A stretch of 50,798 bases of DNA from a virus. The stretch lies in the IMG/VR virus record IMGVR_UViG_3300042895_002011, positions 1-50,798 of that record. One strand, written 5' to 3'. The notes under the pieces were generated by a model. The model ran no database searches, was not told the origin of the DNA, and saw only the letters and a list, made by a program, of their open reading frames with translations. Shown here in pieces: positions 38,921-50,798 of the stretch (positions are counted from its first letter, which is position 1; each line of letters opens with the position of its first letter). A program made the translations under genes and the position numbers.

Positions 38921-39109
38921 TTAGTCGTTATACTGAGAATAGGCATAACTGTCAAGCATAGACAGTTCGTCTGTGATGTCATGAATTGTGGGCTCAATCA
39001 TAGCTGGTAGCCCAACCATCTTAACAGGCTGTTGTGTGTCCACAGAAACACTGTTCTTGGGACGACCAACGCCGCGAGTTTGTTTAGTTGTATTGGATGT
39101 TTTATTCAT
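38921..39109 (-). CDS. Small protein with AT-hook-like core (62 aa)
   Basis: A 62-residue protein from the ATG at 39109 (MNKTSNTTKQTRGVGRPKNS). A longer start would run through the upstream early-type element, so the shorter one is chosen. RGVGRPKNS (12-20) resembles an AT-hook. The acidic C-terminus is IHDITDELSMLDSYAYSQYN. It heads a three-gene unit that ends at the terminator 38475-38500. Confidence 0.68.
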   Translation of the reverse strand: MNKTSNTTKQTRGVGRPKNSVSVDTQQPVKMVGLPAMIEPTIHDITDELSMLDSYAYSQYND

Positions 39110-39123
39110 CTTGTATATACTGG

Positions 39124-39145
39124 CTGCGCATTTAATAAAAGTCAA
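39124..39145 (-). promoter_or_regulatory. Early-type element, diverged copy
   Basis: The coding strand has TTGACTTTTATTAAA, then 11 bases later TATATA 5 bases before the ATG at 39109. It is an outlying member of the 41-51 kb element family. Confidence 0.5.
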
Positions 39146-41292: not shown

Positions 41293-41575
41293 ATATATCA
41301 ATAAGTATATGCTCAAAAAATTTATGTACATATATACAAAAACTATATAACAAAAATCTATATGTTGCGTAAATTGAATAATATAAGGATATATACAAAA
41401 AGTCTATATACAAAAATTGGAAAAATTCTAAATTCAAAAATTAGAGTATAATATCATAAAAGTGTGTATAGGATATATGATATTTTAACTATATGATAAA
41501 TATATGCACAACATATGCTTTTTGTATATATGAAAAGTGTATAAGAAAAATTGACCTCGAATAGAGAATGAATAT
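41293..41575. other. Gene-free AT-rich spacer with 12-mer repeats
   Basis: No gene is visible here. The 12-mer TATATACAAAAA occurs at 41331, 41390 and 41405 in the same orientation and inverted at 41519-41530. The stretch is almost pure A/T. Candidate roles are origin, enhancer or promoter region between the late and early gene blocks. Confidence 0.55.
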
Positions 41576-41699
41576 GGACCCCCGTGGGGGGTGGGGGTTT
41601 ACCCCACCTAGAAGGCACCAAACACCCCACCTAGAGGGGGGAGGGGTGGGGGGTTAAAGCCACCGTCCCCCCCCGCCCCCCGTGCGGGGGTGGCGTGGA
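41576..41699. other. G/C-rich block with G-runs, direct repeat and hairpins
   Basis: It is sharply different from the AT-rich sequence beside it. Features are ACCCCACCTAGA twice (41601-41612, 41624-41635); G6-A-G4-T-G6 at 41636-41653 on the plus strand; G6-C-G8-type runs on the minus strand near 41667-41681; and hairpin arms GTGGGG/CCCCAC. It could form quadruplexes or strong stems. Confidence 0.6.
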
Positions 41700-41710
41700 T
41701 CACGCCACCC
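41688..41710 (-). other. GC-rich hairpin over the stop of the 94-aa gene
   Basis: Perfect 10-bp arms GGGTGGCGTG/CACGCCACCC around a 3-base loop, overlapping the TGA at 41702-41700. There is no T-run, so it is not a standard terminator, but it could pause RNA polymerase. Confidence 0.55.
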
Positions 41711-41984
41711 GCTCAACATAGAACGTGGTGCCAGCCACATCAACCTCCGTGCTGTCACGAAAGGTGTCGGTGGCAGCGTCGTAGAAGCATACGTCGCCGA
41801 AGTTGGCATTGCGAACGTCGTTGGGAAACGACACCTTACCCGTGAGGACACGGCGGTCGCCCTCTGTGCGGTACACGCGATAGTCGGCGTACTTGGCATT
41901 GGCGGCTGCGACCGCATTGGCGGCGTGAAAGGCGGCGTGAAAGGCGGCGACACGAGCGGCGAACGAGGCAGTGGTGTTCATCAT
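41700..41984 (-). CDS. Early small protein (94 aa), Ala-rich N-terminus
   Basis: A 94-residue protein. The first 33 residues are an Ala/His-rich helix (ARVAAFHAAFHAANAVAAAN), and the rest is a small beta domain with GDVCFYDAATDTFRDS. The latter resembles GVYCFYDVATGDLLKGT in the gene at 50298-50660, so the two are probably related. The gene is more G/C-rich than its neighbours. Two tandem ATGs (41984, 41981) could start it. Confidence 0.7.
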   Translation of the reverse strand: MMNTTASFAARVAAFHAAFHAANAVAAANAKYADYRVYRTEGDRRVLTGKVSFPNDVRNANFGDVCFYDAATDTFRDSTEVDVAGTTFYVERVA

Positions 41985-41996
41985 TCAGATACTCTA

Positions 41997-42018
41997 GCAC
42001 ATTTATTATAAATTGCAA
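41997..42018 (-). promoter_or_regulatory. Early-type element, diverged copy
   Basis: TTGCAATTTATAATAAATGTGC on the coding strand before the ATG at 41984. It keeps the TTGC and TTTATAA parts but not CTCTG. Confidence 0.45.
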
Positions 42019-42019
42019 T

Positions 42020-42046
42020 AAAAAAAGGAGGTTATTTCCTCCTTTT
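42020..42046 (-). terminator. Intrinsic terminator
   Basis: Arms AAAGGAGG/CCTCCTTT with a 6-base loop and a run of seven T on the minus strand. It ends the unit of the 46-residue gene. Confidence 0.82.
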
Positions 42047-42049
42047 GTT

Positions 42050-42190
42050 TTATTTCATGAACTCGTCGATGGTGTTCAGCAACTGTTCTTGTGTGTCTGC
42101 TTCATATGATGTTGCATATGCATGTTGTGCAACATATTTGCTGTTATAGTAAAATACATACCAGCCTCTGTAAGTGTAGGTGATTTTCAT
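42050..42190 (-). CDS. Small protein (46 aa), Tyr-rich
   Basis: A short gene of 46 residues, MKITYTYRGWYVFYYNSKYV then AQHAYATSYEADTQEQLLNT, ending IDEFMK. The start lies 10 bases after the stop of the 107-residue gene, and the stop is followed at once by a terminator. This supports it as a real last gene. Function unknown. Confidence 0.65.
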   Translation of the reverse strand: MKITYTYRGWYVFYYNSKYVAQHAYATSYEADTQEQLLNTIDEFMK

Positions 42191-42199
42191 GTTTTTTAT

Positions 42200-42523
42200 T
42201 TAGATGATGCCCGCGACCAGCATCCAACTTGGACTGCCTTCGCTGTCATAGCCGTCTGGCTCAACTACCTGACCAAGCATTGACTTGGCAACACCATCGT
42301 CGCTCCATTTTTCCATGGTCTTGAGCGAAGGAGCCTTGAACTTAGTGAAGTAGCGTGGCAGACTAGAGCAGCGCAGCTTCATGGTCACAGGAACGCCGCC
42401 AGCACTGCCACCAGCCAGTGCGCAAACAGTGCCACCATCCTTGAAGATCACATTTAGGTTTGTGCCAACAGGAATAACCAGACCGTTCTTGAACTTGATT
42501 TCTTTGTTATTAACGAGGTTCAT
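42200..42523 (-). CDS. Early small protein (107 aa), unknown
   Basis: A 107-residue protein starting MNLVNNKEIKFKNGLVIPVG. Strand-rich N-terminal half (TNLNVIFKDGGTVCALAGGS) suggests a small SH3-like barrel: it carries a GLxIPxGT turn. The frame extends upstream through the early element, where it would read FYKNSVSIYNM. That extension recurs before other genes only because the element is conserved, so the ATG at 42523 is chosen. Confidence 0.68.
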   Translation of the reverse strand: MNLVNNKEIKFKNGLVIPVGTNLNVIFKDGGTVCALAGGSAGGVPVTMKLRCSSLPRYFTKFKAPSLKTMEKWSDDGVAKSMLGQVVEPDGYDSEGSPSWMLVAGII

Positions 42524-42535
42524 GTTATAAATACT

Positions 42536-42558
42536 GACAGAGTTTTTATAAAAGTCGA
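42536..42558 (-). promoter_or_regulatory. Early-type element
   Basis: TCGACTTTTATAAAAACTCT then GTC on the coding strand, with TATTTA 19 bases after the TCGACT box and 3 bases before the ATG. It overlaps the last codons and stop of the upstream gene. Confidence 0.6.
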
Positions 42559-42821
42559 GCAATAATTTTATCCAGTGCGTCTATGCTGCGCTGCAAACTT
42601 TCTTTTTCTTGCTTTGCACGCAGTTGCAAGTATTCAACACTAACGTTTTGATAAAAATTCTTGATGTATTCTTTGTTGGTGCTGTTAACATTTCCGTTCA
42701 TGATGTCACGAATGCATTCGGCGCGACTGGATTCATAACTGTCATAATCCAAATTGTCTATTTCCCAAAGCAAAATTTCTTGCAAGACGCCAGGCAGATC
42801 AAAGAAGGATGTTGGTTTCAT
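42546..42821 (-). CDS. Early small protein (91 aa), helical
   Basis: A 91-residue protein from the ATG at 42821, MKPTSFFDLPGVLQEILLWE onward. The C-terminal third is a coiled-coil-like helix (LQLRAKQEKESLQRSIDALD). Its ATG is one base after the upstream stop and no element lies between, so it is read with the membrane-protein gene. The final residues ARLL and the TAA stop are encoded inside the next early element. Confidence 0.7.
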   Translation of the reverse strand: MKPTSFFDLPGVLQEILLWEIDNLDYDSYESSRAECIRDIMNGNVNSTNKEYIKNFYQNVSVEYLQLRAKQEKESLQRSIDALDKIIARLL

Positions 42822-42822
42822 G

Positions 42823-42975
42823 TTATAGGGTGCTGCCAATGTATGAGAGAATCAATCCAATACAGCACAGCAGTAATGCCAATTTACGGTATTTACCTTG
42901 CCCAATAGAATGGTTGTAAATAAAAAAGCCAGCGATAGAGAGCAAGCAGCCGAATAAGAGCAGGAATGATTTCAT
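42823..42975 (-). CDS. Small two-pass membrane protein (50 aa)
   Basis: A 50-residue protein, almost entirely two hydrophobic helices: SFLLLFGCLLSIAGFFIY and KLALLLCCIGLILSYIGS, joined by NHSIGQGKYR. An early element precedes the ATG at 42975. The longer upstream frame is rejected because it runs through the element. Function unknown; small phage membrane proteins may act on the host envelope. Confidence 0.68.
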   Translation of the reverse strand: MKSFLLLFGCLLSIAGFFIYNHSIGQGKYRKLALLLCCIGLILSYIGSTL

Positions 42976-42987
42976 GTTATAAATACT

Positions 42988-43010
42988 GACAGAGTTTTTA
43001 TAAATGTCAA
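42988..43010 (-). promoter_or_regulatory. Early-type element
   Basis: TTGACA, TTTATAAAAACTCTGTC, then TATTTA with a 19-base spacer and ATG 3 bases later. The TGA inside TTGACA is the stop of the upstream gene (43009-43007). Confidence 0.62.
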
Positions 43011-43213
43011 GGATTTTTATGGTCGCCAAACCAGATTCCGATGGGCGACTTGGAACGATCATATGCGCCATTCGCGCCGATAGGATAAATAAGATCAAGC
43101 GCATTTATGCCAGAAAATCGACCAGTTACACCGTTCATAACATCACAGCTAATGTCTCCACCGTGAACTTTCTTGATGTCGTTGAGTTGCTTGATAAGGT
43201 CTTTAAGTTTCAT
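43007..43213 (-). CDS. Early small protein (68 aa)
   Basis: A 68-residue protein with a helical start (MKLKDLIKQLNDIKKVHGGD) and a Gly/Asp-rich remainder (NGVTGRFSGINALDLIYPIG; IGIWFGDHKNP). Pattern LxxLIxxLxxIxxxHGxDxxV is common in small phage proteins of unknown role. The stop lies inside the next early element. Confidence 0.7.
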   Translation of the reverse strand: MKLKDLIKQLNDIKKVHGGDISCDVMNGVTGRFSGINALDLIYPIGANGAYDRSKSPIGIWFGDHKNP

Positions 43214-43225
43214 GTTATAAATACT

Positions 43226-43248
43226 GACAGAGTTTTTATAAAAGTCAA
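43226..43248 (-). promoter_or_regulatory. Early-type element
   Basis: TTGACTTTTATAAAAACTCT then GTC, with TATTTA at a 19-base spacing. Its TGA is the stop codon of the upstream 82-residue gene (43247-43245). Confidence 0.62.
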
Positions 43249-43493
43249 GTCAGATATGCCTTCAATTCTTTAAAAGTTTCAAATCGGTCATATTCATCTT
43301 CATATTGACAAGTATCCTCATCCCATTTGCGAGTGCGGAGAGTGAAGGGAGCGGGGTGTCCAACGTAAAGGGGATCGTATGAAACGCCCATTTCGTATTC
43401 ATTTGCATTGCTGATATACTCTTTTGAACTTCTGCTGTAATAGAATCCAAACCCCAACTTGTTCAACTCGTCTATTTGTTCAGTGGTGATCAT
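43245..43493 (-). CDS. Early small protein (82 aa)
   Basis: An 82-residue acidic, Tyr-rich protein (LGFGFYYSRSSKEYISNANE; RKWDEDTCQYEDEYDRFETF). It is unknown. An early element precedes the ATG at 43493, and the stop is supplied by the following element. Confidence 0.68.
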   Translation of the reverse strand: MITTEQIDELNKLGFGFYYSRSSKEYISNANEYEMGVSYDPLYVGHPAPFTLRTRKWDEDTCQYEDEYDRFETFKELKAYLT

Positions 43494-43505
43494 GATTAAG
43501 AGAGT

Positions 43506-43528
43506 AGCAGAGTTTTTATAAATGTCGA
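43506..43528 (-). promoter_or_regulatory. Early-type element
   Basis: TCGACATTTATAAAAACTCT then GC, with TACTCT at a 16-base spacing; ATG 10 bases later. Confidence 0.55.
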
Positions 43529-43531
43529 GAC

Positions 43532-43693
43532 TTATTTTTTCTTTTTAAACAAAATGTTATGGATGGCATTTATGTCGTCGGCTGAAATTTCATCGGTTTT
43601 GAGAAACGAGGTGAACACATTTCGGATGTCTCTTTTCATTGAGTCAAGCTTGATCCACTCTGCAATGTCAATGTTTTTTTGATTTGGTTTCAT
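43532..43693 (-). CDS. Small protein (53 aa)
   Basis: A short gene of 53 residues, MKPNQKNIDIAEWIKLDSMK then RDIRNVFTSFLKTDEISADD, ending in a Lys-run. The ATG shares one base with the upstream stop (TAATG at 43695-43691), typical of coupled genes. Function unknown. Confidence 0.66.
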   Translation of the reverse strand: MKPNQKNIDIAEWIKLDSMKRDIRNVFTSFLKTDEISADDINAIHNILFKKKK

Positions 43694-43968
43694 TAGCTTT
43701 CTTCCCATTTGCCAATCGTGCGGAGAAACGCCTCTGCTCGTTGATTGGCGGTGGCATGGAACGGATAAACTGCAAATTGGAAGGAAACACTATCCTCCAT
43801 TTCGCGAAGCTGATTGTAATCAAGCACCTTCTCCGCTTCGTGCATTGCGTTGAGGTCGTTGAGGTAGTCGGGGACGCCACAACCAATAGTCTTGGTCGGC
43901 AGCGCGTAGCTCCATTTCATTGTGCCACACGCTTCTGCGATGGCGGTTCTTTGTTTTTCAGGTTTCAT
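43693..43968 (-). CDS. Phage ABA-sandwich-type protein (91 aa)
   Basis: A 91-residue protein with the layout of the phage ABA sandwich domain: IAEACGTMKW near 10-18, PDYLNDLNAMHEAEKVL near 33-49, and the closing helix ATANQRAEAFLRTIGKW. Such domains are frequent in phages and their role is not known. An E-type early element precedes it and it is coupled to the 53-residue gene. Confidence 0.75.
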   Translation of the reverse strand: MKPEKQRTAIAEACGTMKWSYALPTKTIGCGVPDYLNDLNAMHEAEKVLDYNQLREMEDSVSFQFAVYPFHATANQRAEAFLRTIGKWEES

Positions 43969-43980
43969 ATTTAAAACTAT

Positions 43981-44003
43981 GAACTATTATTTATAAAAGT
44001 CAA
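43981..44003 (-). promoter_or_regulatory. Early-type element, TAATAG variant
   Basis: TTGACTTTTATAAATAATAG then TTC, with TAGTTT at an 18-base spacing. The TGA ends the upstream 71-residue gene. Confidence 0.58.
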
Positions 44004-44215
44004 GCAGCCTTTTCACCTTTGATAAACAGCAATTCTTTGACCTGCTTGATCTTGACAGTTTGACCTTCATCTGCCAGAATTTTTGCTTCTTTTATAGCAG
44101 ATTTGAGTGTTTTGAGTGTGGTGTCCAAGGTTTCATCGTCATATTCTCCCCAACCACTTGTGGCACCAATCGTGTAGAGTTCAAAGTATGTCTTGGTAAG
44201 TTTCTTGGATTTCAT
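44000..44215 (-). CDS. Early small protein (71 aa)
   Basis: A 71-residue protein, MKSKKLTKTYFELYTIGATS then GWGEYDDETLDTTLKTLKSA, predicted beta-alpha-beta. It is unknown. The stop TGA lies within the following element's TTGACT box. Confidence 0.68.
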   Translation of the reverse strand: MKSKKLTKTYFELYTIGATSGWGEYDDETLDTTLKTLKSAIKEAKILADEGQTVKIKQVKELLFIKGEKAA

Positions 44216-44227
44216 GTTATAAATACT

Positions 44228-44251
44228 GACTTACTTATTATAAAATGTCAA
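44228..44251 (-). promoter_or_regulatory. Early-type element, variant
   Basis: TTGACATTTTATAATAAGTA then AGTC, with TATTTA at a 20-base spacing, 3 bases before the ATG at 44215. Confidence 0.55.
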
Positions 44252-44466
44252 GCACTCAATGCAAAATTGCTGCCAAATTTTCCAGTAATATTGCTGCGTT
44301 CAAAAGCAACAATGTCATTGTTCACAGAAAAAACAATTGAACGTATGATGCCATATTCATCAAATTGAATGTTCAACAGTTTATATGATGTGTTGGGTGC
44401 TACAACAATCCAAGTGTTGTTGTAGGTTTTCAAATTGGCGGCAATGTTGAAGATAACAAATTTCAT
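44248..44466 (-). CDS. Early small protein (72 aa)
   Basis: A 72-residue beta-rich protein (MKFVIFNIAANLKTYNNTWI; YKLLNIQFDEYGIIRSIVFS). It is not recognised. An early element of the TAATAG type precedes it and the stop lies in the next element. Confidence 0.68.
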   Translation of the reverse strand: MKFVIFNIAANLKTYNNTWIVVAPNTSYKLLNIQFDEYGIIRSIVFSVNNDIVAFERSNITGKFGSNFALSA

Positions 44467-44480
44467 CTTGGTTAAACTAT

Positions 44481-44504
44481 GAACTATTATTTATAAAAAG
44501 TCAA
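44481..44504 (-). promoter_or_regulatory. Early-type element, TAATAG variant
   Basis: TTGACTTTTTATAAATAATA then GTTC, with TAGTTT at a 19-base spacing. Supplies the TGA of the upstream 99-residue gene. Confidence 0.56.
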
Positions 44505-44800
44505 GCTCGCAGCGGCGATACTTTGATTTCTTTGGTGGTGATAGTGATGGTCTTTTTGCCGTTCTTGGTGGTGGTGGTCTTGGTTTCTGCAAACCACTTG
44601 ACCCGCAGGTTCTCCACGGGAATGACCTCGTTATCACCATGACCCAGAACAATGGTGTGGGGCCACGGATAGTAGGTGGCGTTGGCGTTCTTTCGCGTTT
44701 CCAGCACCCTGCCAGCTCGCACGGTGGTATTGCCGCACAGTGTGGTGTAGGCAAATGGCTTGGCGACAATCAGCTTGGTGATGTATTTGGTGGTCTTCAT
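44501..44800 (-). CDS. Early small protein (99 aa), Thr/Lys-rich
   Basis: A 99-residue protein with a strand-rich N-terminus (ITKLIVAKPFAYTTLCGNTT) and a Thr/Lys run near the end (AETKTTTTKNGKKTITITTK). It is unknown. The stop is the TGA of the next element. Confidence 0.68.
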   Translation of the reverse strand: MKTTKYITKLIVAKPFAYTTLCGNTTVRAGRVLETRKNANATYYPWPHTIVLGHGDNEVIPVENLRVKWFAETKTTTTKNGKKTITITTKEIKVSPLRA

Positions 44801-44814
44801 CTTGAATACAGTAT

Positions 44815-44838
44815 GAACTATTATTTATAAAAAGTCCA
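44815..44838 (-). promoter_or_regulatory. Early-type element, TAATAG variant
   Basis: TGGACTTTTTATAAATAATA then GTTC, with TACTGT at a 19-base spacing before the ATG at 44800. It follows a terminator, so this gene must start its own transcript here. Confidence 0.6.
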
Positions 44839-44851
44839 GACAAAAGCATAT

Positions 44852-44886
44852 AAAAAAAGAGGGAGTCGCCACCACGCGACTCCCTC
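44852..44886 (-). terminator. Strong intrinsic terminator
   Basis: An 11-bp stem (GAGGGAGTCGC/GCGACTCCCTC) with a 6-base loop and seven T on the minus strand. It ends the unit at 44912-45265. Confidence 0.9.
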
Positions 44887-44911
44887 AACTATGAACACTC
44901 AACCTAAAATC

Positions 44912-45265
44912 TTAGTGGTGGTTATAACAAGAAATCGGATTGCCACTCCAAACATAATAGTTGCTGTAGCTGTTGTTCTTGACCCTATAGCCGTCGCCAT
45001 CAGCAGTAAAACGCTTGGTCTCGGTATCACCCTTGATGCGATCCGTAGCAGGCGTGCTGATCCATTCCATGCCACCGCCGCCAGTGTATTTGTTGTCGGC
45101 GGGCAAGCGCACAATCTTGACGCTCTTGCCAGTCACACCCACAACCTTGGCCCAACTAGCAATGCTGGCTTCATAGCCAGATACGCTGACCAGAATATCG
45201 CCCACCTTGGGACCATTCACAACAACCGTCTTGTTTTGCAGATCAGGAGAAAAGATAGAGTTCAT
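44912..45265 (-). CDS. Early protein (117 aa), unknown
   Basis: A 117-residue, probably beta-barrel protein (KTVVVNGPKVGDILVSVSGY; WAKVVGVTGKSVKIVRLP), with DGDGYRVKNNSYSNYYVWSG at the end. The N-terminal part looks SH3- or KOW-like, but the match is weak. It is a single-gene unit: an early element lies upstream and a strong terminator downstream. Confidence 0.72.
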   Translation of the reverse strand: MNSIFSPDLQNKTVVVNGPKVGDILVSVSGYEASIASWAKVVGVTGKSVKIVRLPADNKYTGGGGMEWISTPATDRIKGDTETKRFTADGDGYRVKNNSYSNYYVWSGNPISCYNHH

Positions 45266-45277
45266 ATTATAGATACT

Positions 45278-45300
45278 GACAGAGTTTTTATAAAAAGCAA
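45278..45300 (-). promoter_or_regulatory. Early-type element
   Basis: TTGCTTTTTATAAAAACTCT then GTC, with TATCTA at a 19-base spacing. Flanking AGAGTT/AACTCT forms an inverted repeat. Confidence 0.62.
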
Positions 45301-45309
45301 CTCTATTTT

Positions 45310-45600
45310 TTAGTCAAACGCAGGATGACTGGCATTTGCAACATAAATGTGAAAATGTGCTGTGCTGCGTGGAGCACGATATGTGTCAAGATTTACGTGG
45401 TTTACGTTGACCATCTCGCTGCGAGCACGCACCCAACGCAACAGTTTCTGAGCATCTCCGGTGCTGCCGTCAATAGCCCAAGCCACACGGCTGGCTCCAC
45501 CTGTTGCTCCACCCCAGCCGCTCATGCACTTGTCCTTGGCAACGATTGCCCACTTGTGGGTGATTTTCTGAGATTCATTGCGATCATCTACGGTTTTCAT
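45310..45600 (-). CDS. Early protein (96 aa), unknown
   Basis: A 96-residue protein from the ATG at 45600, MKTVDDRNESQKITHKWAIV onward. It contains a Gly-rich turn (SGWGGATGGASRVAWAIDGS) and an Arg-rich strand-helix (KLLRWVRARSEMVNVNHVNL), and a C-terminal HFHIYV. It is unknown. The longer upstream frame runs through the element and is rejected. Confidence 0.68.
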   Translation of the reverse strand: MKTVDDRNESQKITHKWAIVAKDKCMSGWGGATGGASRVAWAIDGSTGDAQKLLRWVRARSEMVNVNHVNLDTYRAPRSTAHFHIYVANASHPAFD

Positions 45601-45612
45601 ATTATAGATACT

Positions 45613-45635
45613 GACAGAGTTTTTATAAAAAGCAA
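45613..45635 (-). promoter_or_regulatory. Early-type element
   Basis: Identical in core to the copy at 45278-45300, including the TATCTA hexamer and spacing. Confidence 0.62.
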
Positions 45636-45643
45636 CTCTATTT

Positions 45644-45775
45644 TTACTGCCACTTGTTGTTTCTGTTCTTGCGAGTGTAGGCACCTTTGCCTTTTTTGGT
45701 CTTGTGAATCTGATTGCCCAGATTCATGCCAGAGCTAAACACGCTGCGAAGTTTGATTTGATTGTTGGTCTTCAT
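45644..45775 (-). CDS. Small basic protein (43 aa)
   Basis: A short gene of 43 residues, MKTNNQIKLRSVFSSGMNLG then NQIHKTKKGKGAYTRKNRNN, ending KWQ. It is strongly basic. It has its own early element and fills the space between two others, which supports it as real. Nucleic-acid binding is possible. Confidence 0.68.
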   Translation of the reverse strand: MKTNNQIKLRSVFSSGMNLGNQIHKTKKGKGAYTRKNRNNKWQ

Positions 45776-45787
45776 GACACTAACTAT

Positions 45788-45810
45788 GTCAGAGTTTTTA
45801 TAAAAAGCAA
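45788..45810 (-). promoter_or_regulatory. Early-type element
   Basis: TTGCTTTTTATAAAAACTCT then GAC, with TAGTTA at an 18-base spacing; ATG 6 bases later. Confidence 0.6.
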
Positions 45811-45812
45811 GT

Positions 45813-46040
45813 CTATTTCGTCAATTTGGTGTTCACAATATACTTGATCAGGTGGTTGAGACCCTTGCCCACATACTTGCAACGCTTGAGCAAGTATTTG
45901 CTGTCATAATTCGGAAACCCACTTTCTTCTTCAATCTCATCGGGTGAAAGAAAAACCCACTTATTTTCTGCCCTGAGATACAGATAAATAAAACCTTCTT
46001 TATTTTCAACGTAATAACCGGGTTTTGGTGATTTGCTCAT
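45813..46040 (-). CDS. Early small protein (75 aa)
   Basis: A 75-residue protein, MSKSPKPGYYVENKEGFIYL then YLRAENKWVFLSPDEIEEES. Beta-rich start and Lys-rich end (LLKRCKYVGKGLNHLIKYIV). It is unknown. An early element precedes it. Confidence 0.68.
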   Translation of the reverse strand: MSKSPKPGYYVENKEGFIYLYLRAENKWVFLSPDEIEEESGFPNYDSKYLLKRCKYVGKGLNHLIKYIVNTKLTK

Positions 46041-46051
46041 GTTGTTAGAAT

Positions 46052-46074
46052 GTCAGAGTTTTTATAAAAGTCAA
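46052..46074 (-). promoter_or_regulatory. Early-type element
   Basis: TTGACTTTTATAAAAACTCT then GAC before the ATG at 46040. The downstream hexamer is weak (TTCTAA). Confidence 0.55.
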
Positions 46075-46101
46075 ATCTATTTTATCCAATCTGCTGTTTT
46101 T

Positions 46102-46329
46102 TCAACCAAACAAATCTTCAAGTGTCAACAGGCTGGTATTTTGATGAACGTAAGTGTATGATAAAGGATTGATTTCTTTCCAAAATTTAGAAGCAGCAAG
46201 ACCTGTGGCTTCAAGACTGTTGGTTGCTGAAATAACATAACTGCGTTCTACTGTTTCATGATTATTGACAGAGTTTTTATAATAATCAACTCTATTTTTT
46301 ACAGCACAAATTGTGGTGATATATTGCAT
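46102..46329 (-). CDS. Fused or frameshifted small gene (75 aa as read)
   Basis: The frame begins at the ATG after the element at 46342-46364 (MQYITTICAVKN), then runs straight through another complete element (46267-46289, read as DYYKNSVNN) into VERSYVISATNSLEATGLAA then SKFWKEINPLSYTYVHQN. The natural start would be the ATG at 46259, but there the frame is ATG-AAA-CAG-TAG. One extra base would give MKxVERSYV. So either a one-base loss broke the second gene or it is now made as a fusion. The C-terminal part looks like a normal conserved small phage protein. Confidence 0.5.
   Translation of the reverse strand: MQYITTICAVKNRVDYYKNSVNNHETVERSYVISATNSLEATGLAASKFWKEINPLSYTYVHQNTSLLTLEDLFG
46267..46289 (-). 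promoter_or_regulatory. Early-type element inside a fused reading frame
   Basis: TTGATTATTATAAAAACTCT then GTC. The following ATG at 46259 is out of frame with the protein that follows. Confidence 0.5.
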
Positions 46330-46341
46330 ATTTAAGATACT

Positions 46342-46364
46342 GTCAGAGTTTTTATAAAAAGCAA
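46342..46364 (-). promoter_or_regulatory. Early-type element
   Basis: TTGCTTTTTATAAAAACTCT then GAC, with TATCTT at a 19-base spacing before the ATG at 46329. Confidence 0.6.
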
Positions 46365-46366
46365 CT

Positions 46367-46567
46367 CTATTTTATCCAATCTGCTGCTTTTTCAATCAGC
46401 AACAAAAAGCCAGCAATAACAAGTCCGAAAATCATGATGATTGGGCCAACAACAATAGCCAAACGAAGTGATGGTTTTTTTGCAGCGTCTTCAAGACTGA
46501 ATAGCACACACAGTCCAAACAAACTCCAGATAATAAAAAATGCGGTGATTAAAAATGTATATGACAT
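46367..46567 (-). CDS. Small two-pass membrane protein (66 aa)
   Basis: A 66-residue protein from the ATG at 46567. Helices are YTFLITAFFIIWSLFGLCVL and LAIVVGPIIMIFGLVIAGFL, separated by a charged loop (EDAAKKPSLR). It is unknown. Its second half is hydrophobic to the end, with a short tail EKAADWIK. Confidence 0.7.
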   Translation of the reverse strand: MSYTFLITAFFIIWSLFGLCVLFSLEDAAKKPSLRLAIVVGPIIMIFGLVIAGFLLLIEKAADWIK

Positions 46568-46576
46568 ATATGATTT

Positions 46577-46596
46577 AATTGTTTTATAAATGTCAA
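46577..46596 (-). promoter_or_regulatory. Early-type element, short variant
   Basis: TTGACATTTATAAAACAATT before the ATG at 46567. CTCTG is not conserved. Confidence 0.48.
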
Positions 46597-46814
46597 ACAG
46601 ATATTGGTGATGGGCGACCAGTGGTGTCATCAAAAATATAATTCACTGCATCCTCCGACTCAGCGGCACGACTGTCAATTGGAACATACCAACGAGAAAG
46701 CAATTCATACCCAGCTTTTTCAGCTTCAATTTTGGTGGCAAATCGCAGAGCATTGCTTGCCCAAGATTTTTCGCCTTGATACATTGTGCAAACTTCAGTT
46801 TTCCAAGATTTCAT
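46593..46814 (-). CDS. Conserved-type small phage protein (73 aa)
   Basis: A 73-residue protein with NALRFATKIEAEKAGYELLS then RWYVPIDSRAAESEDAVNY. This RFATxxEAExxxxxLxxRW...ESxDxVNY pattern is widespread among phages, from memory, with no known role. The stop overlaps the following element. Confidence 0.75.
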   Translation of the reverse strand: MKSWKTEVCTMYQGEKSWASNALRFATKIEAEKAGYELLSRWYVPIDSRAAESEDAVNYIFDDTTGRPSPISV

Positions 46815-46826
46815 ATTTAAGATAAT

Positions 46827-46849
46827 GTATGAGTTTTTATAGAAAGCAA
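46827..46849 (-). promoter_or_regulatory. Early-type element
   Basis: TTGCTTTCTATAAAAACTCA then TAC, with TATCTT at a 19-base spacing. CTCTG is changed to CTCAT. Confidence 0.55.
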
Positions 46850-46857
46850 GAAAAATC

Positions 46858-47166
46858 TCAAGCTTTAACTAGCCGATATTTCACACCATCCACTTCAACG
46901 AGATTGCCTTCGCAAGATGATTTTGGCTTGATGTATTCGTTGAACTCTTTTTCGGTCATTGCTTTACCATTAACATACCATGCTTTATAACCATTAGCCT
47001 CTTCAATAGCAGGACCATCAAGGCGATGACGTTTGCCATCAACATACCATGCTTTATCACCATTAGCATATTTAAAAGCAGGACCATCAAGGCGATGAAG
47101 TTTTTCTTTATCGTTATACCAACGAATTGTTTTATATTTATCAACAGTTACTTTGTAAGTTTGCAT
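46858..47166 (-). CDS. HRxDGPA repeat protein, two-repeat form (102 aa)
   Basis: A 102-residue protein from the ATG at 47166. It contains two 23-residue repeats, KLHRLDGPAFKYANGDKAWY(VDG) and KRHRLDGPAIEEANGYKAWY(VNG), of the MORN-like HRxDGPAxxxxxGxxxWYxxG type common in phages. The C-terminal EVDGVKYRLVKA matches that of the gene at 48748-49197, a paralogue with four repeats. Function unknown. Confidence 0.78.
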   Translation of the reverse strand: MQTYKVTVDKYKTIRWYNDKEKLHRLDGPAFKYANGDKAWYVDGKRHRLDGPAIEEANGYKAWYVNGKAMTEKEFNEYIKPKSSCEGNLVEVDGVKYRLVKA

Positions 47167-47178
47167 GAGTGGAAAAGT

Positions 47179-47201
47179 AGCAGAGTTTTTATAAATGTCG
47201 A
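47179..47201 (-). promoter_or_regulatory. Early-type element
   Basis: TCGACATTTATAAAAACTCT then GC, with TACTTT at a 16-base spacing, the best TAnnTTT match; ATG 9-10 bases later. Confidence 0.6.
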
Positions 47202-47204
47202 GAC

Positions 47205-47369
47205 TTATTTTACTTTTTTGGATGATAGTTGAGCTTTCCAAGCAGCAACAACTGCATCAACTGCGAACTTATGTTCGTCTTCGGTGATTCTCAAAGCAGC
47301 ACAAGCTTCGTCCAGCTCAAACACAATGTTGCCAATTTCAACGCCAGTGATAATTGATTTGGAGTTCAT
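47205..47369 (-). CDS. Small protein (54 aa)
   Basis: A short gene of 54 residues, MNSKSIITGVEIGNIVFELD then EACAALRITEDEHKFAVDAV, ending VAAWKAQLSSKKVK. It has an early element upstream and fills a space that would otherwise be empty. It is unknown. Confidence 0.66.
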   Translation of the reverse strand: MNSKSIITGVEIGNIVFELDEACAALRITEDEHKFAVDAVVAAWKAQLSSKKVK

Positions 47370-47381
47370 AAATAAGATAAT

Positions 47382-47404
47382 GACAGAGTTTTTATTAAAA
47401 GCGA
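47382..47404 (-). promoter_or_regulatory. Early-type element
   Basis: TCGCTTTTAATAAAAACTCT then GTC, with TATCTT at a 19-base spacing before the ATG at 47369. Confidence 0.55.
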
Positions 47405-47407
47405 GAC

Positions 47408-47626
47408 TTATTTTAAATTTTCAACGGTATAACCACGCTGCCAAGCATCCATGAGCTTCAACAGTTGCTTGGTAAATTTCCAATCAGCTGTGCTGTATTT
47501 CTTGATGAAATAACTAAACTCAACATCAGATGCACAGGAACACAAGATGCCACGCTGAAAAGCGGCTGCACCCATAACAGTTGCTTTGTTCAAGTCGTTC
47601 TGAAAATCTGCTTTGGTGAGGTTCAT
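47408..47626 (-). CDS. Early small protein (72 aa), helical
   Basis: A 72-residue protein from the ATG at 47626, MNLTKADFQNDLNKATVMGA then AAFQRGILCSCASDVEFSYF. It is probably all-helical (LLKLMDAWQRGYTVENL). Unknown. Confidence 0.68.
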   Translation of the reverse strand: MNLTKADFQNDLNKATVMGAAAFQRGILCSCASDVEFSYFIKKYSTADWKFTKQLLKLMDAWQRGYTVENLK

Positions 47627-47638
47627 ACTTAAAACAAT

Positions 47639-47661
47639 ATCGGACTTTTTATAAAAGTCAA
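47639..47661 (-). promoter_or_regulatory. Early-type element
   Basis: TTGACTTTTATAAAAAGTCC then GA, with TATTGT at a 16-base spacing. Confidence 0.58.
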
Positions 47662-47663
47662 AC

Positions 47664-47846
47664 TCAATCATCAACAACGTTCATGTCGCTCAGAATTTCT
47701 TCGGCAACCTCCCAAGCATCGTTACGATGCTTGACGGGCAGGATACCACAATAGGCTCCGGTCATCTCGTCACCGTCAATGAAGACGGTGTAATATGCTT
47801 CCCCGTGGAAGTCAATTGGTTTTACATCAACTTTTGGTGATATCAT
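47664..47846 (-). CDS. Early small protein (60 aa)
   Basis: A 60-residue protein from the ATG at 47846, MISPKVDVKPIDFHGEAYYT then VFIDGDEMTGAYCGILPVKH, acidic at the end. It is unknown. The element before it is nearly identical to the one before the next gene, suggesting local duplication. Confidence 0.66.
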   Translation of the reverse strand: MISPKVDVKPIDFHGEAYYTVFIDGDEMTGAYCGILPVKHRNDAWEVAEEILSDMNVVDD

Positions 47847-47859
47847 GCTTAAAAACAAT

Positions 47860-47882
47860 ATCGGACTTTTTATAAAAAGCAA
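47860..47882 (-). promoter_or_regulatory. Early-type element
   Basis: TTGCTTTTTATAAAAAGTCC then GA, with TATTGT at a 16-base spacing. It is a sister of the copy at 47639-47661. Confidence 0.58.
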
Positions 47883-47890
47883 CTCTTATT

Positions 47891-48115
47891 TTATTTATCC
47901 AGTTTGGCGGCGGATACCCGTGTGCCTCCTGCCGGAATCATAGCAACAACCTTGCCGAAGCGATACAGCATAGACACTGCGCTTGCTGGGCAAAAGCCGT
48001 GGCTGTCTTCTGGCGCGTGTTCGTCGCGATGAATGCCTTCCAGCACAACTATCATTGATACTTTTTCTTTTCGGGCAACTTGGTTGGCGAGGAGATATGC
48101 GGTGTTGAAGTTCAT
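47891..48115 (-). CDS. Early small protein (74 aa)
   Basis: A 74-residue protein, MNFNTAYLLANQVARKEKVS then MIVVLEGIHRDEHAPEDSHG. Ala/Val-rich core with a C-terminal KVVAMIPAGGTRVSAAK. It is unknown. An early element lies upstream. Confidence 0.68.
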   Translation of the reverse strand: MNFNTAYLLANQVARKEKVSMIVVLEGIHRDEHAPEDSHGFCPASAVSMLYRFGKVVAMIPAGGTRVSAAKLDK

Positions 48116-48127
48116 ATTTAGAATAAT

Positions 48128-48150
48128 GTCAGAGTTTTTATAAAAAGCAA
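48128..48150 (-). promoter_or_regulatory. Early-type element
   Basis: TTGCTTTTTATAAAAACTCT then GAC, with TATTCT at a 19-base spacing. It follows a terminator directly. Confidence 0.62.
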
Positions 48151-48151
48151 G

Positions 48152-48182
48152 AAAAAAGGGGAGGTTTTTTATGCCTCCTCTT
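48152..48182 (-). terminator. Intrinsic terminator
   Basis: Arms AGAGGAGG and CCTCCCCT (one G-T pair) with an 8- to 9-base loop, then TTTTTT on the minus strand. It ends the 48206-48710 unit. Confidence 0.8.
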
Positions 48183-48205
48183 TTCTTATGAACCCAACGA
48201 AAAAA

Positions 48206-48397
48206 TCAAAAGTCAAGAGCGTAATCTGCATTGATGATTTTCACATCATTGTCGTCAAACACAAGACAGTTTTCACCGTCGTCACCGTCAATCCAATATG
48301 TCATGTCACCTGTTGGAGTTTCATGAATAACGGCCACCGTGCCGTTGACATGGCGACCCTCATATTGCATATTTACTCTGTCGCCTACGAGCAGCAT
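48206..48397 (-). CDS. Small SH3-like protein (63 aa)
   Basis: A 63-residue protein from the ATG at 48397, MLLVGDRVNMQYEGRHVNGT then VAVIHETPTGDMTYWIDGDD. The VGDRVNMxYxGxxVxGTVAVI pattern resembles small SH3/hypervariable barrel proteins. Its ATG lies one base after the upstream stop (TAACATG), so the two genes are read together. Confidence 0.7.
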   Translation of the reverse strand: MLLVGDRVNMQYEGRHVNGTVAVIHETPTGDMTYWIDGDDGENCLVFDDNDVKIINADYALDF

Positions 48398-48398
48398 G

Positions 48399-48710
48399 TT
48401 ATTGATCCTCCCCGCCAAAGCTGTCAATAGATGGGCAGTAGTTTTCCTCGTCGTCATAGCCAGCGGAACGCAGAGCGTCAGCATCAGCCTCGCCGTCGTG
48501 GCGAAACTGGTCAGGCTCGTTATCATCAGCAGAGCTACCGAAATCAACAATGCCTTGCTCATGCAACAAGTCCACGAGATAATCAACATCGTCGGTGTTG
48601 ATTGTCATATTGTCATAATCAACACTGTATTGGGGCGTGCTGTCAAGCTCCAGAGCAGTGACGGCGAGCAGAAACAGACCCTTTTCGGTGAAGGTGATGG
48701 AGGAGTTCAT
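48399..48710 (-). CDS. Early acidic protein (103 aa)
   Basis: A 103-residue, strongly acidic protein (DDVDYLVDLLHEQGIVDFGS; DDNEPDQFRHDGEADADALR). A DNA-mimic or inhibitor role is conceivable but unsupported. The start is set by the early element at 48723-48745. Confidence 0.7.
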   Translation of the reverse strand: MNSSITFTEKGLFLLAVTALELDSTPQYSVDYDNMTINTDDVDYLVDLLHEQGIVDFGSSADDNEPDQFRHDGEADADALRSAGYDDEENYCPSIDSFGGEDQ

Positions 48711-48722
48711 ACTTAAAACAAT

Positions 48723-48745
48723 GACAGAATTTTTATAAAAAGCAA
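48723..48745 (-). promoter_or_regulatory. Early-type element
   Basis: TTGCTTTTTATAAAAATTCT then GTC, with TGTTTT at a 19-base spacing. CTCTG is ATTCTG here. Confidence 0.58.
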
Positions 48746-48747
48746 CA

Positions 48748-49197
48748 TCAAACTTCTACCAACTTGTATTTTTTACCATCAATTTCAACTACCTTGCCAG
48801 CGAAAGACGCTTGCTTGGGCTTGGTGTGAGCAAGAAACTGCTCCTGCGTCAGATTCTTACCATCCACATGCCACTCCTTGGTGCCAGATGCATATTCAAC
48901 GGCAGGGCCATCCTCGCGATGACGCTTACCATCCACATACCACTCCGCGCTGCCATTTGGATATTCAACGGCAGGGCCATCCTCGCGATGACGCTTGTCA
49001 TCCACATACCAACACTTGAAGCCCCCCACAAATTCAACGGCTGGACCATCCTCGCGATGACGCTTACCATCCACATACCACTCCGCGCTGCCATCCGCAT
49101 ATTCAAAGGCTGGGCCGTCTTTGCGATGCAGCTTTCCACCGCTGTTGCGCCACTCAATCTGCTTTTTGTCGTTGACCGTTACAGTGTAAGTTTCCAT
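48748..49197 (-). CDS. HRxDGPA repeat protein, four-repeat form (149 aa)
   Basis: A 149-residue protein with four 23-residue MORN-like repeats, each K(R/L)HR(E/K)DGPAxExxxGxxxWYxDx. The second to fourth start KRHREDGPAVE. The DNA repeats (69-bp unit, ~48880-49130) are nearly identical, so copies arose by recent tandem duplication. N- and C-termini (TVTVNDKKQIEW; GKVVEIDGKKYKLVEV) match the two-repeat paralogue at 46858-47166. Function unknown. Confidence 0.82.
   Translation of the reverse strand: METYTVTVNDKKQIEWRNSGGKLHRKDGPAFEYADGSAEWYVDGKRHREDGPAVEFVGGFKCWYVDDKRHREDGPAVEYPNGSAEWYVDGKRHREDGPAVEYASGTKEWHVDGKNLTQEQFLAHTKPKQASFAGKVVEIDGKKYKLVEV
48885..49130 (-). repeat. Tandem 69-bp DNA repeats within the HRxDGPA gene
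   Basis: The segment CATCCTCGCGATGACGCTTA (plus strand) recurs every 69 bases, with close matches on either side. Such tracts can gain or lose units by recombination. Confidence 0.7.
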
Positions 49198-49209
49198 ACT
49201 TAAAACAGT

Positions 49210-49232
49210 GACAGAATTTTTATAAAAAGCAA
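49210..49232 (-). promoter_or_regulatory. Early-type element
   Basis: TTGCTTTTTATAAAAATTCT then GTC, with TGTTTT at a 19-base spacing. It is a sister of the copy at 48723-48745. Confidence 0.58.
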
Positions 49233-49235
49233 CAC

Positions 49236-49481
49236 TTATTTCACAAAAGTTGCGATTGGCGCAATTGTTTCATGCAAGCTGCGAGCAAAATAGCATTGAT
49301 TGGTGTCGCTGTTCCAACCAGTATAAGTGAATTTGCGACCATCATAACTCAAGACCTTTTTGCTGATCTTCTTGACATCGTCCCAACCATTTGGAACATC
49401 AATGGTTAGATATTCACGAGCAACATCTGGACGATATGAGTAAACAACAGAAATGTCGTTGGGAAGAATGGATGCTTTCAT
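49236..49481 (-). CDS. Early small protein (81 aa)
   Basis: An 81-residue protein, MKASILPNDISVVYSYRPDV then AREYLTIDVPNGWDDVKKIS. The pattern DVPNGWDDVKKIxKKVLxYDGxxFxxxGWNSDxxxCYF recurs in phage small proteins. Role unknown. Confidence 0.72.
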   Translation of the reverse strand: MKASILPNDISVVYSYRPDVAREYLTIDVPNGWDDVKKISKKVLSYDGRKFTYTGWNSDTNQCYFARSLHETIAPIATFVK

Positions 49482-49493
49482 GATATGAACAAT

Positions 49494-49516
49494 GACAGAG
49501 TTTTTATAAAATGCAA
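49494..49516 (-). promoter_or_regulatory. Early-type element
   Basis: TTGCATTTTATAAAAACTCT then GTC, with TGTTCA at a 19-base spacing. Confidence 0.58.
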
Positions 49517-49519
49517 CAC

Positions 49520-49648
49520 TTATTTTTTCTTCTTTGGCACACTAACAATGTATTTTCCACTGCGTTCAGAGAAAGCATAATTGCTATTGGCTGGATTTTT
49601 CTTGGCAAATTCAATAACTTGCTGCTTGGTGAATCGTTTGAGTTTCAT
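49520..49648 (-). CDS. Small basic protein (42 aa)
   Basis: A short gene of 42 residues, MKLKRFTKQQVIEFAKKNPA then NSNYAFSERSGKYIVSVPKK, ending KK. The ATG overlaps the upstream stop (ATGA at 49648-49645). It is coupled to it and strongly basic. Unknown. Confidence 0.68.
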   Translation of the reverse strand: MKLKRFTKQQVIEFAKKNPANSNYAFSERSGKYIVSVPKKKK

Positions 49649-49839
49649 TTCAACTGTTTGTTTGAAACAGAATCTCTTGCTTCAATAATTTCTTTGAATG
49701 TGCAATAAGTAATATAAGTTTTTTGAGCTGGACGATATTCGACTCTACCATTTTCATATGACAAGTAAATGCCCCAGTGAGCAAACTCAGCCCCTTTCTT
49801 TACAAGAATACTATCTCCAATTTTCAGTTTTGGTCTCAT
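49645..49839 (-). CDS. Early small protein (64 aa), SH3-like
   Basis: A 64-residue protein, MRPKLKIGDSILVKKGAEFA then HWGIYLSYENGRVEYRPAQK, with a small-barrel pattern. An in-frame ATG two codons upstream (49845) is possible. The spacing seen in the neighbouring copy favours 49839. Confidence 0.68.
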   Translation of the reverse strand: MRPKLKIGDSILVKKGAEFAHWGIYLSYENGRVEYRPAQKTYITYCTFKEIIEARDSVSNKQLK

Positions 49840-49851
49840 GATCATAACAAT

Positions 49852-49874
49852 GACAGAGTTTTTATAAAAGTCAA
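49852..49874 (-). promoter_or_regulatory. Early-type element
   Basis: TTGACTTTTATAAAAACTCT then GTC, with TGTTAT at a 19-base spacing. Confidence 0.58.
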
Positions 49875-49932
49875 GATGAAAATAAAATAAGTGTGCGTGA
49901 GTTGATATGCGCACCCCATCATTGAAATTTAT

Positions 49933-50229
49933 TTAAACGATCTCAACGTCCTTGAAATAACGCTCAGAACGATGCAGAATTTCACTCCAATCATTTTCTA
50001 CGCTGCTTGGAATTTCATCAGCAAAGTGCGGAAACGCTTCGGCACGACCAAGTGCAATGTTCAACGCCAGTTCTGGGTTGAACTTGTCGCCAAGATTAAC
50101 AGCGCACAGGCTGTAACCAAAGCCAACTGTATTGTCGCTGCGCTTCACAGCTACGACCACGCCGACTTTTTGCCGTCGCCGGTTGCGAACATACTGAAAG
50201 ATAGTGTTGTTGGGAGGATTGGCCATCAT
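49933..50229 (-). CDS. Early protein (98 aa), unknown
   Basis: A 98-residue protein from the tandem ATGs at 50229/50226 (MMANPPNNTIFQYVRNRRRQ). The middle KVGVVVAVKRSDNTVGFGYS is strand-rich. C-terminal helix LNIALGRAEAFPHFADEIPS resembles a conserved phage module seen in AlNIALGRAE-type proteins. The leader between element and ATG is longer than usual here. Confidence 0.68.
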   Translation of the reverse strand: MMANPPNNTIFQYVRNRRRQKVGVVVAVKRSDNTVGFGYSLCAVNLGDKFNPELALNIALGRAEAFPHFADEIPSSVENDWSEILHRSERYFKDVEIV

Positions 50230-50266
50230 ATGTATTGTGTTGTTGTTTGACTGAAATAATAATAAT

Positions 50267-50289
50267 GTATGATTTTTTATAAAAAGCAA
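50267..50289 (-). promoter_or_regulatory. Early-type element, distant from ATG
   Basis: TTGCTTTTTATAAAAAATCA then TAC. The ATG at 50229 is about 37 bases downstream, unlike the 10-20 of other copies, so this transcript would have a real leader. Confidence 0.5.
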
Positions 50290-50297
50290 CTCTATTT

Positions 50298-50660
50298 TTA
50301 GCGAAGATACGCAGGACCATGTTCAGTGAACTTGGTCAGCACGTTGGCATCTTTGACGTTGCCGCGCACGCCTTTGGCAACAGGAGCCTTCCAAGTGCCT
50401 TTGAGCAAATCGCCAGTGGCTACGTCATAGAAGCAATAAACGCCAGTGGCTTTGAGCGGACCAGTGCGATGCGGCACGCGCTCACACTTAGCAAGTTTGG
50501 CATAACGCTTGCCCACGCTGTCAACCATGACGACGGGAGCATCATTGTGCGTGAAGTTGTTGCGTTGCCAATAGTCAGTGATCTTCTTGTTCACGCCACG
50601 AATAAAATCCGTGAGCGGCATATCATTTTTCAGAGCATCAATGGTGTCGGTCTTGTTCAT
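50298..50660 (-). CDS. Early protein (120 aa), related to the 94-aa gene at 41700
   Basis: A 120-residue protein from the ATG at 50660, MNKTDTIDALKNDMPLTDFI then RGVNKKITDYWQRNNFTHND. Its ATGVYCFYDVATGDLLKGTW segment is like GDVCFYDAATDTFRDS in the 94-residue gene. The Arg/Lys-rich KRYAKLAKCERVPHRTGPLK could bind nucleic acid. Unknown. Confidence 0.7.
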   Translation of the reverse strand: MNKTDTIDALKNDMPLTDFIRGVNKKITDYWQRNNFTHNDAPVVMVDSVGKRYAKLAKCERVPHRTGPLKATGVYCFYDVATGDLLKGTWKAPVAKGVRGNVKDANVLTKFTEHGPAYLR

Positions 50661-50672
50661 GTTTAGAAATAT

Positions 50673-50695
50673 GTCAGAGTTTTTATAAAAGTCAA
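50673..50695 (-). promoter_or_regulatory. Early-type element
   Basis: TTGACTTTTATAAAAACTCT then GAC, with TATTTC at an 18-base spacing before the ATG at 50660. Confidence 0.6.
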
Positions 50696-50798
50696 TCACC
50701 AATCAAACATTTTGGGAACCATTTTTCCATTCTCACGTAGCCAACCTACGTTTTGAGCGTGCAGGTCAGGAGCATAACCCTTGGCAATGTATGGTGCC
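50696..50798 (-). CDS. C-terminal end of a small protein, cut by window edge
   Basis: An open frame enters from the right edge and ends at TGA 50698-50696: APYIAKGYAPDLHAQNVGWL then RENGKMVPKMFDW. The stop directly precedes the next early element. The IAKGYAPDLHAQNVGWLRENG pattern looks like a conserved phage protein, but I cannot name it. Confidence 0.7.
   Translation of the reverse strand, partial: APYIAKGYAPDLHAQNVGWLRENGKMVPKMFDW

Follow-up and report, generated by a model that had tools for sequence, protein, structure and literature searches.

A repeated promoter-like element at a fixed distance from the start codons of small genes in a T4-like jumbo phage

An array of elements upstream of small genes

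We analyzed a 50,798-base IMG/VR virus record (IMGVR_UViG_3300042895_002011; "the window") that belongs to a T4-like jumbo phage. Between 42.0 and 50.7 kb the window carries small genes of 43-149 amino acids (aa) on the minus strand, and nearly every one of them has a 35-bp element upstream. Almost none of these genes has a Pfam family; comparison of orthologs shows that they are coding, with two- to fourfold more changes at third than at second codon positions. A nucleotide search with 30-50.8 kb of the window against 50,697 phage records gave no match. By inspection, we counted 28 copies of the element from 42018 to 50695, all on the minus strand, and one diverged copy at 39.1 kb. This agrees with an earlier note on this DNA, which had reported about 27 near-identical elements and a diverged copy at 39124-39145; the latter proves to have the layout of a complete promoter. 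The predicted promoter elements are listed here with the ATG that follows each; spacings noted copy by copy are given in brackets.

50661-50695, minus: element; ATG of the 120-aa gene at 50660
50255-50289, minus: element with a leader; start codon of the 97-98-aa gene 60-63 nt from the -35 start
49840-49874, minus: element; ATG at 49839, with an in-frame ATG also at 49845
49482-49516, minus: element; ATG at 49481
49198-49232, minus: element with -10 CACTGT; ATG of the 149-aa gene at 49197; in relative G001 this promoter is fused to the 103-aa gene
48711-48745, minus: element with -10 CATTGT; ATG of the 103-aa gene at 48710
48116-48150, minus: element; ATG at 48115; terminator-like hairpin directly upstream
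47847-47882, minus: element; ATG at 47846 (36 nt)
47627-47661, minus: element; ATG at 47626
47370-47404, minus: element; ATG at 47369
47167-47201, minus: element with T-first -10 TACTTT; ATG at 47166
46815-46849, minus: element; ATG at 46814
46568-46596, minus: shortened, diverged element; ATG at 46567 (29 nt)
46330-46364, minus: element; ATG at 46329
46260-46289, minus: element followed only by a 3-codon open reading frame (ORF; ATG AAA CAG TAG), probably the remnant of a lost gene
46041-46074, minus: element; ATG at 46040 (34 nt)
45776-45810, minus: element; ATG of the 43-aa ArfA-like gene at 45775
45601-45635, minus: element; ATG at 45600
45266-45300, minus: element; ATG at 45265
44801-44838, minus: diverged element, TGGACT / CATACT; ATG at 44800 (38 nt)
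44467-44504, minus: diverged element, TTGACT / CATAGT; ATG at 44466 (38 nt)
44216-44251, minus: diverged element, TTGACA / CAGTAT; ATG at 44215 (36 nt)
43969-44003, minus: element; ATG at 43968
43494-43528, minus: element with T-first -10 TACTCT; ATG at 43493
43214-43248, minus: element; ATG at 43213
42976-43010, minus: element; ATG at 42975
42524-42558, minus: element; ATG at 42523
41982-42018, minus: diverged element with -10 TAGAGT; ATG ATG at 41984/41981
39110-39145, minus: diverged, complete element; ATG at 39109 (36 nt)

The array stands far above chance expectation. TTTATAAAAACTCTG matches the window 20 times with at most two mismatches, always on the minus strand and within 42.5-50.7 kb, compared with a mean of 0.36 and a maximum of 4 in shuffled sequences. 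A looser seed, T[TC]G[AC][CT][TA] followed by T1-3 ATAA, matched 20 times in 41.9-50.8 kb, where shuffled sequences averaged 0.24, and twice in the remaining 41.9 kb.

To describe the element we aligned one copy per gene family, using 43 families from the window and its relatives, all with the ATG at 35. The layout is a TTGACW (or TTGCTT) box, TTTATAAAA, a variable filler, a [C/T]AnnnT hexamer 16 nt past the -35 box, 7 nt, and then the ATG. Numbered from the A of the ATG, positions -35 to -30 read T[T/C]G[A/C][C/T][T/A], and -29 to -20 hold the almost invariant TTTATAAAAA. After a variable stretch, which is CTCTG in the window's subfamily, come [C/T]A at -13/-12 and T at -8, with the A and T of the hexamer almost invariant, and finally C or T at -1, the ATG and usually AA. 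The earlier note's "core" corresponds to the promoter spacer: its TTTATAAAA part is conserved across the clade, and its CTCTG part belongs to the window's subfamily only. A palindromic operator reading of TTTATAAA was also considered; it is compatible with a promoter, and no partner was found.

The main feature of the array, absent from the earlier note, is that the promoter-like element abuts the start codon at a fixed distance. The note had stated that the frame relative to the next ATG varies; instead, the distance from the -35 start to the ATG is 35 nt in 19 of the 28 copies and 34-37 nt in 23 of them. We also pooled matches to the looser seed, with no condition on an ATG, from the window, G001, G008, G009 and G010. 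Of these 143 seeds, 95 have ATG at +35 and 14 at +34, compared with 0.7% at other offsets, and none has GTG at +35. A pyrimidine precedes the ATG in 89 of the 95 copies, as is common at many transcription start sites.

Promoter geometry and the predicted transcription start

In sigma70 terms, the element combines a TTGACW/TTGCTT -35 box with, 16-17 nt on, a [C/T]AnnnT hexamer that carries the A2 and T6 of a -10 box; in the window's subfamily the hexamer is often preceded by TG. With the typical 16-nt spacer, the hexamer ends 7 nt short of the start codon, which places the predicted transcription start on the ATG itself. Moreover, a Shine-Dalgarno (SD)-like 4-mer 5-20 nt upstream occurs in none of 26 array genes, compared with 7 of 34 other window genes (p 0.016), so that the array genes have both sequence marks of leaderless genes, a predicted start on the ATG and no SD.

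We consider it likely that each element is a complete sigma70-type promoter at which transcription begins with the A of the ATG that follows. RNA polymerase would contact TTGACW at -35, the adjoining A/T block TTTATAAAA on its downstream side, and [C/T]AnnnT around -13 to -8; synthesis would begin 7 nt past the hexamer, on the ATG. Every small gene would then be expressed from a leaderless mRNA of its own, with translation beginning at the 5'-terminal AUG and requiring no Shine-Dalgarno sequence. We infer that the polymerase is the host's with its main sigma factor, or a phage-altered form of it, as none was found in the phage.

A different assignment of the boxes would have TTTATAAAA act as a -10-type box for a host or late phage sigma factor, with a start near CTCTG and a leader of 15-20 nt without SD. 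TTTATAAAA is indeed the most conserved block and resembles TATA-type boxes, and a gp55-like sigma factor could read a TATAAATA-like box. The window encodes one candidate:

22527-23411, minus: candidate gp55-like late sigma factor, identical to a G001 protein across the 266 aa compared

The G001 counterpart has a weak phrog_234 match (E 6.7e-5), and the window protein itself has no family match. Short leaders nonetheless appear unlikely to us: they account neither for the invariant TTGAC box nor for a [C/T]AnnnT hexamer 16 nt from it, and the copies before tRNA genes carry good -10 boxes (TAGAGT, TATAGT) at the hexamer. The structural genes, moreover, show ATATTTAT instead, for which reason the T4 late-type TATAAATA was also rejected as the array signal. 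ATATTTAT lies 14-40 nt upstream of 11 of 34 structural and neighboring genes (window 1622-41331) and is a candidate late promoter of the window phage.

The tRNA genes of relatives decide between a signal in transcription and one in translation. In G001, tRNA-Met and tRNA-Lys lie 50 and 61 nt, respectively, behind the start of an element with a TAGAGT -10, and other tRNA genes (G001, G005, L035, G009 and G010) follow a TTGAC-type box, 16 nt and a [T/C]AnnnT hexamer. A tRNA gene has no use for a start codon, so the element acts at the level of transcription and is not a ribosome-binding site. A translation-initiation element or start-associated sequence working at the RNA level would account for the fixed ATG distance, the single orientation and the occurrence only before genes; the tRNA copies, the perfect -35 boxes and the lack of SD make it highly improbable. 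On the reading as a leaderless promoter, the same promoter would serve the phage tRNA genes with a leader. The -10 of the tRNA copies is T-first in 9 of 13 and C-first in 4 of 13, as against C-first in 84 of 95 mRNA copies (Fisher p ~1e-5, an approximate value because orthologous copies are not independent).

The tRNA leaders often hold TGTTCTTT between promoter and tRNA (L038 6925-8160, L040 14929-16528, L108 17870-18410, L110 11458), which we take to resemble a boxA antitermination signal. At L038 10296-10560 (G001 ~200.3-200.6 kb), an element with a TAGTGT -10 precedes a conserved-looking non-coding stretch with neither a start codon nor a tRNA call, possibly another small RNA; an RNA family search found none besides tRNA.

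T4 middle promoters have a MotA box 12 +/- 1 bp from the -10 and use MotA and AsiA (PMC2988021). The TTGCTT of many window copies resembles the MotA box wwwTGCTTtA (PMC2988021), and relative G001 is of T4 type by its baseplate, gp32 and other genes. Still, we regard middle promoters of this kind, or promoters of a phage RNA polymerase, as very unlikely. TTGCTT is limited to the window's subfamily, most relatives having TTGACW, and the spacing from box to -10 is 14. In G001, which may be incomplete, searches for RNA polymerase beta-subunit families gave no match while detecting 14 positive controls. Nor did G001 match a T7-type RNA polymerase, in a search without a detected positive control, or MotA and AsiA, for which no control genome was detected. 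An archaeal promoter, with a TATA box near -26 and leaderless mRNA, was rejected because a relative has tRNA genes behind bacterial-type promoters and encodes the gp55-like sigma candidate, bacterial RecA, and CsgG, CHASE2 and TPS-secretion domains.

Several observations weigh against the leaderless sigma70-type reading. The -10 is C-first in most mRNA copies, where a sigma70-type box would begin with T; T is the usual first base, though not an obligatory one. A pyrimidine before the ATG is also found in 29 of the window's 34 other genes. In some copies the ATG lies 2-3 nt further away (44838, 44505) or behind a real leader (50289). For ordinary sigma70 a -10 that begins with C is a weak one, and TTTATAAAA lies outside the standard sigma70 features; since plain sigma70 explains neither, a phage factor may be involved. 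Finally, read-through from upstream promoters is likely, because terminators were found in few gaps only. The array region has 14 terminator-like sites, barely more than the 10 in shuffles, with strong ones in few gaps; two hairpins of this kind are:

44859-44886, minus: strong intrinsic-terminator-like hairpin with a T tail, between two array genes
42023-42046, reported on both strands: terminator-like hairpin at the end of the main array

Just beyond the array, within A/T-rich surroundings, window 41560-41700 is very rich in G/C and contains runs of both bases (ccccgtggggggtgggggtttacccc...).

Relatives and the exchange of genes

We scanned all viral contigs with the general pattern TTGACN-TTTATAAAA-N7-CANNNT-N7-ATG. 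The scan returned 31 stretches, with arrays in G001, G004, G005, G006, G008, G009, G010 and 3300027983_000058; with the ATG moved 4 nt further, it returned 18 single matches and no array. In the whole 297-kb record of G001, a promoter-plus-ATG model matched one strand 37 times, with 27 of these matches at 190-210 kb; it matched the opposite strand once and the reversed sequence not at all. The element was absent from Microcystis phage Mel-JY01, a 484-kb uncultured phage, Flavobacterium phage immuto and Xanthomonas phage XacN1, where one match with three mismatches is attributable to chance. Isolated core matches that lack a TTGAC or ATG context (most of L001-L036) likewise look like chance and are often intragenic, and were set aside.

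The more distant relatives bear on whether the element is conserved by function. G008-G010 and 3300027983_000058 share homologous genes with G001 at a median protein identity of 38-51%, and in these diverged relatives positions -20 to -14 vary while the boxes and the spacing are fixed. Copying alone is therefore insufficient. The elements could be a plain repeat, recently duplicated and kept alike by copying and recombination, and the window copies are indeed nearly identical and do recombine; we find this barely credible given that TTGACW, TTTATAAAA, the hexamer, the base before the ATG and the spacing all stay fixed at such distances.

Close relatives show how the array changes. The window and G001 are 93-99% identical across most of the first 42.5 kb, and the array is rearranged. 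In G001, the left flank of the window's 149-aa gene and its CACTGT promoter run directly into the frame of the 103-aa gene. This junction is an exact recombinant of two elements, and the gene between them is missing. Similarly, in G002 the promoter variant that belongs to gene family F14 (as in G001, G004 and G006) precedes F1, and F14 is absent. Alignment break points fall within 8 nt of an element in 14 of 16 cases against G001 (17% expected) and in 18 of 25 against G004; as elements occupy most intergenic gaps, this enrichment would partly arise from any gene-boundary event. On our preferred reading, the near-identical copies would serve as short homologies, through which recombination could remove or insert whole genes with expression kept intact.

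The earlier note had proposed that each small gene has its own early promoter, and had asked whether related phages carry the element before different genes, as the diverged relatives do. One promoter per gene is upheld by the -35/-10 geometry, the presence of the element before tRNA genes and its conservation in those relatives. "Early" is no stronger than plausible, given small orphan genes on one strand, host-type boxes and a different motif before the structural genes. As a bolder and rather doubtful extension, the C-first -10 and the TTTATAAAA block could mark a promoter class special to this clade, one that a host polymerase altered or assisted by the phage would read. Such promoters would define an early leaderless regulon of takeover genes, a few dozen in each phage, whose translation would be independent of the anti-Shine-Dalgarno sequence and so may continue when normal initiation is shut down.

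If the leaderless-promoter reading is right, one repeated 35-bp part would drive a whole block of small phage genes, each through a leaderless message for that gene alone. Such a compact promoter-plus-start module would explain how genes can be swapped in without loss of expression, and leaderless translation would become testable as a phage programme rather than in isolated genes. In addition, the rigid spacing provides a one-line pattern by which tiny orphan genes of uncultivated jumbo phages can be assigned their start codons.

A few genes behind or near the elements can be described further. ArfA is an alternative ribosome-rescue factor. The C-terminal half of the 43-aa array gene at 45644-45775 (minus) matches it (Pfam E 6.5e-5) at 22.8 bits, just below the Pfam cut-off of 25.5 bits; this family also occurs in G001, G002 and G005, and no match was found in named phages. 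The array genes at 48748-49197 and 46858-47166 (both minus) share a repeated motif, [E/W]WYVDGKRHREDGPA, and are one family in two array copies; the longer matches DUF6745. G001 encodes an Acb1-like (anti-CBASS) protein (Pfam E 1.6e-9) among the 23 ORFs of alignment A6 (~137-213 kb), and elsewhere tyrosinase, CHASE2, CsgG and guanylate-cyclase domains.

Comparison with known systems

In the literature covered, limited to some open-licence papers, we found no array of leaderless promoters in a phage. The closest known systems are T4 early promoters and the cassettes of promoter-early stem-loops (PeSLs). T4 early promoters are read by host sigma70 through UP, -35, TGn and -10 elements (PMC2988021). 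Like the array, they have host-type -35/-10 boxes with extra conserved positions between them, and one promoter for small early genes; in the array, by contrast, the -10 is C-first, TTTATAAAA forms a constant block next to the -35 box, and the start codon coincides with the predicted start site.

PeSLs of T4-type phages were reportedly described by Arbiol in 2010 and Comeau in 2014 (cited in PMC4503421). They are early-type promoters repeated between small genes, with a stem-loop terminator as part of the unit, and they mediate gene shuffling. The array likewise places repeated promoters of early type between the small genes of a variable region, and an exact recombinant was found. It differs in having a unit without a stem-loop, terminators in few gaps, and an end at the ATG that predicts leaderless mRNA.

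The start-associated sequence (SAS) known from cluster K mycobacteriophages has an AGGAG 3-7 nt away from the start codon and resembles a ribosome-binding site (PMC3203893). Like the array element, SAS is repeated in one orientation, adjoins the start codons of non-structural genes and is followed by different genes in relatives; the array element, by contrast, is promoter-like, also serves tRNA genes, and comes without an SD-like 4-mer in the 26 array genes.

Leaderless mRNAs are well documented in bacteria, including Caulobacter (PMC4117421) and mycobacteria (PMC4633059). There, as predicted for the array, promoter geometry makes transcription begin at the A of the ATG, and an SD is missing. 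Bacterial leaderless genes, however, are scattered through their genomes, whereas the array is a compact phage block sharing one repeated promoter-like element.

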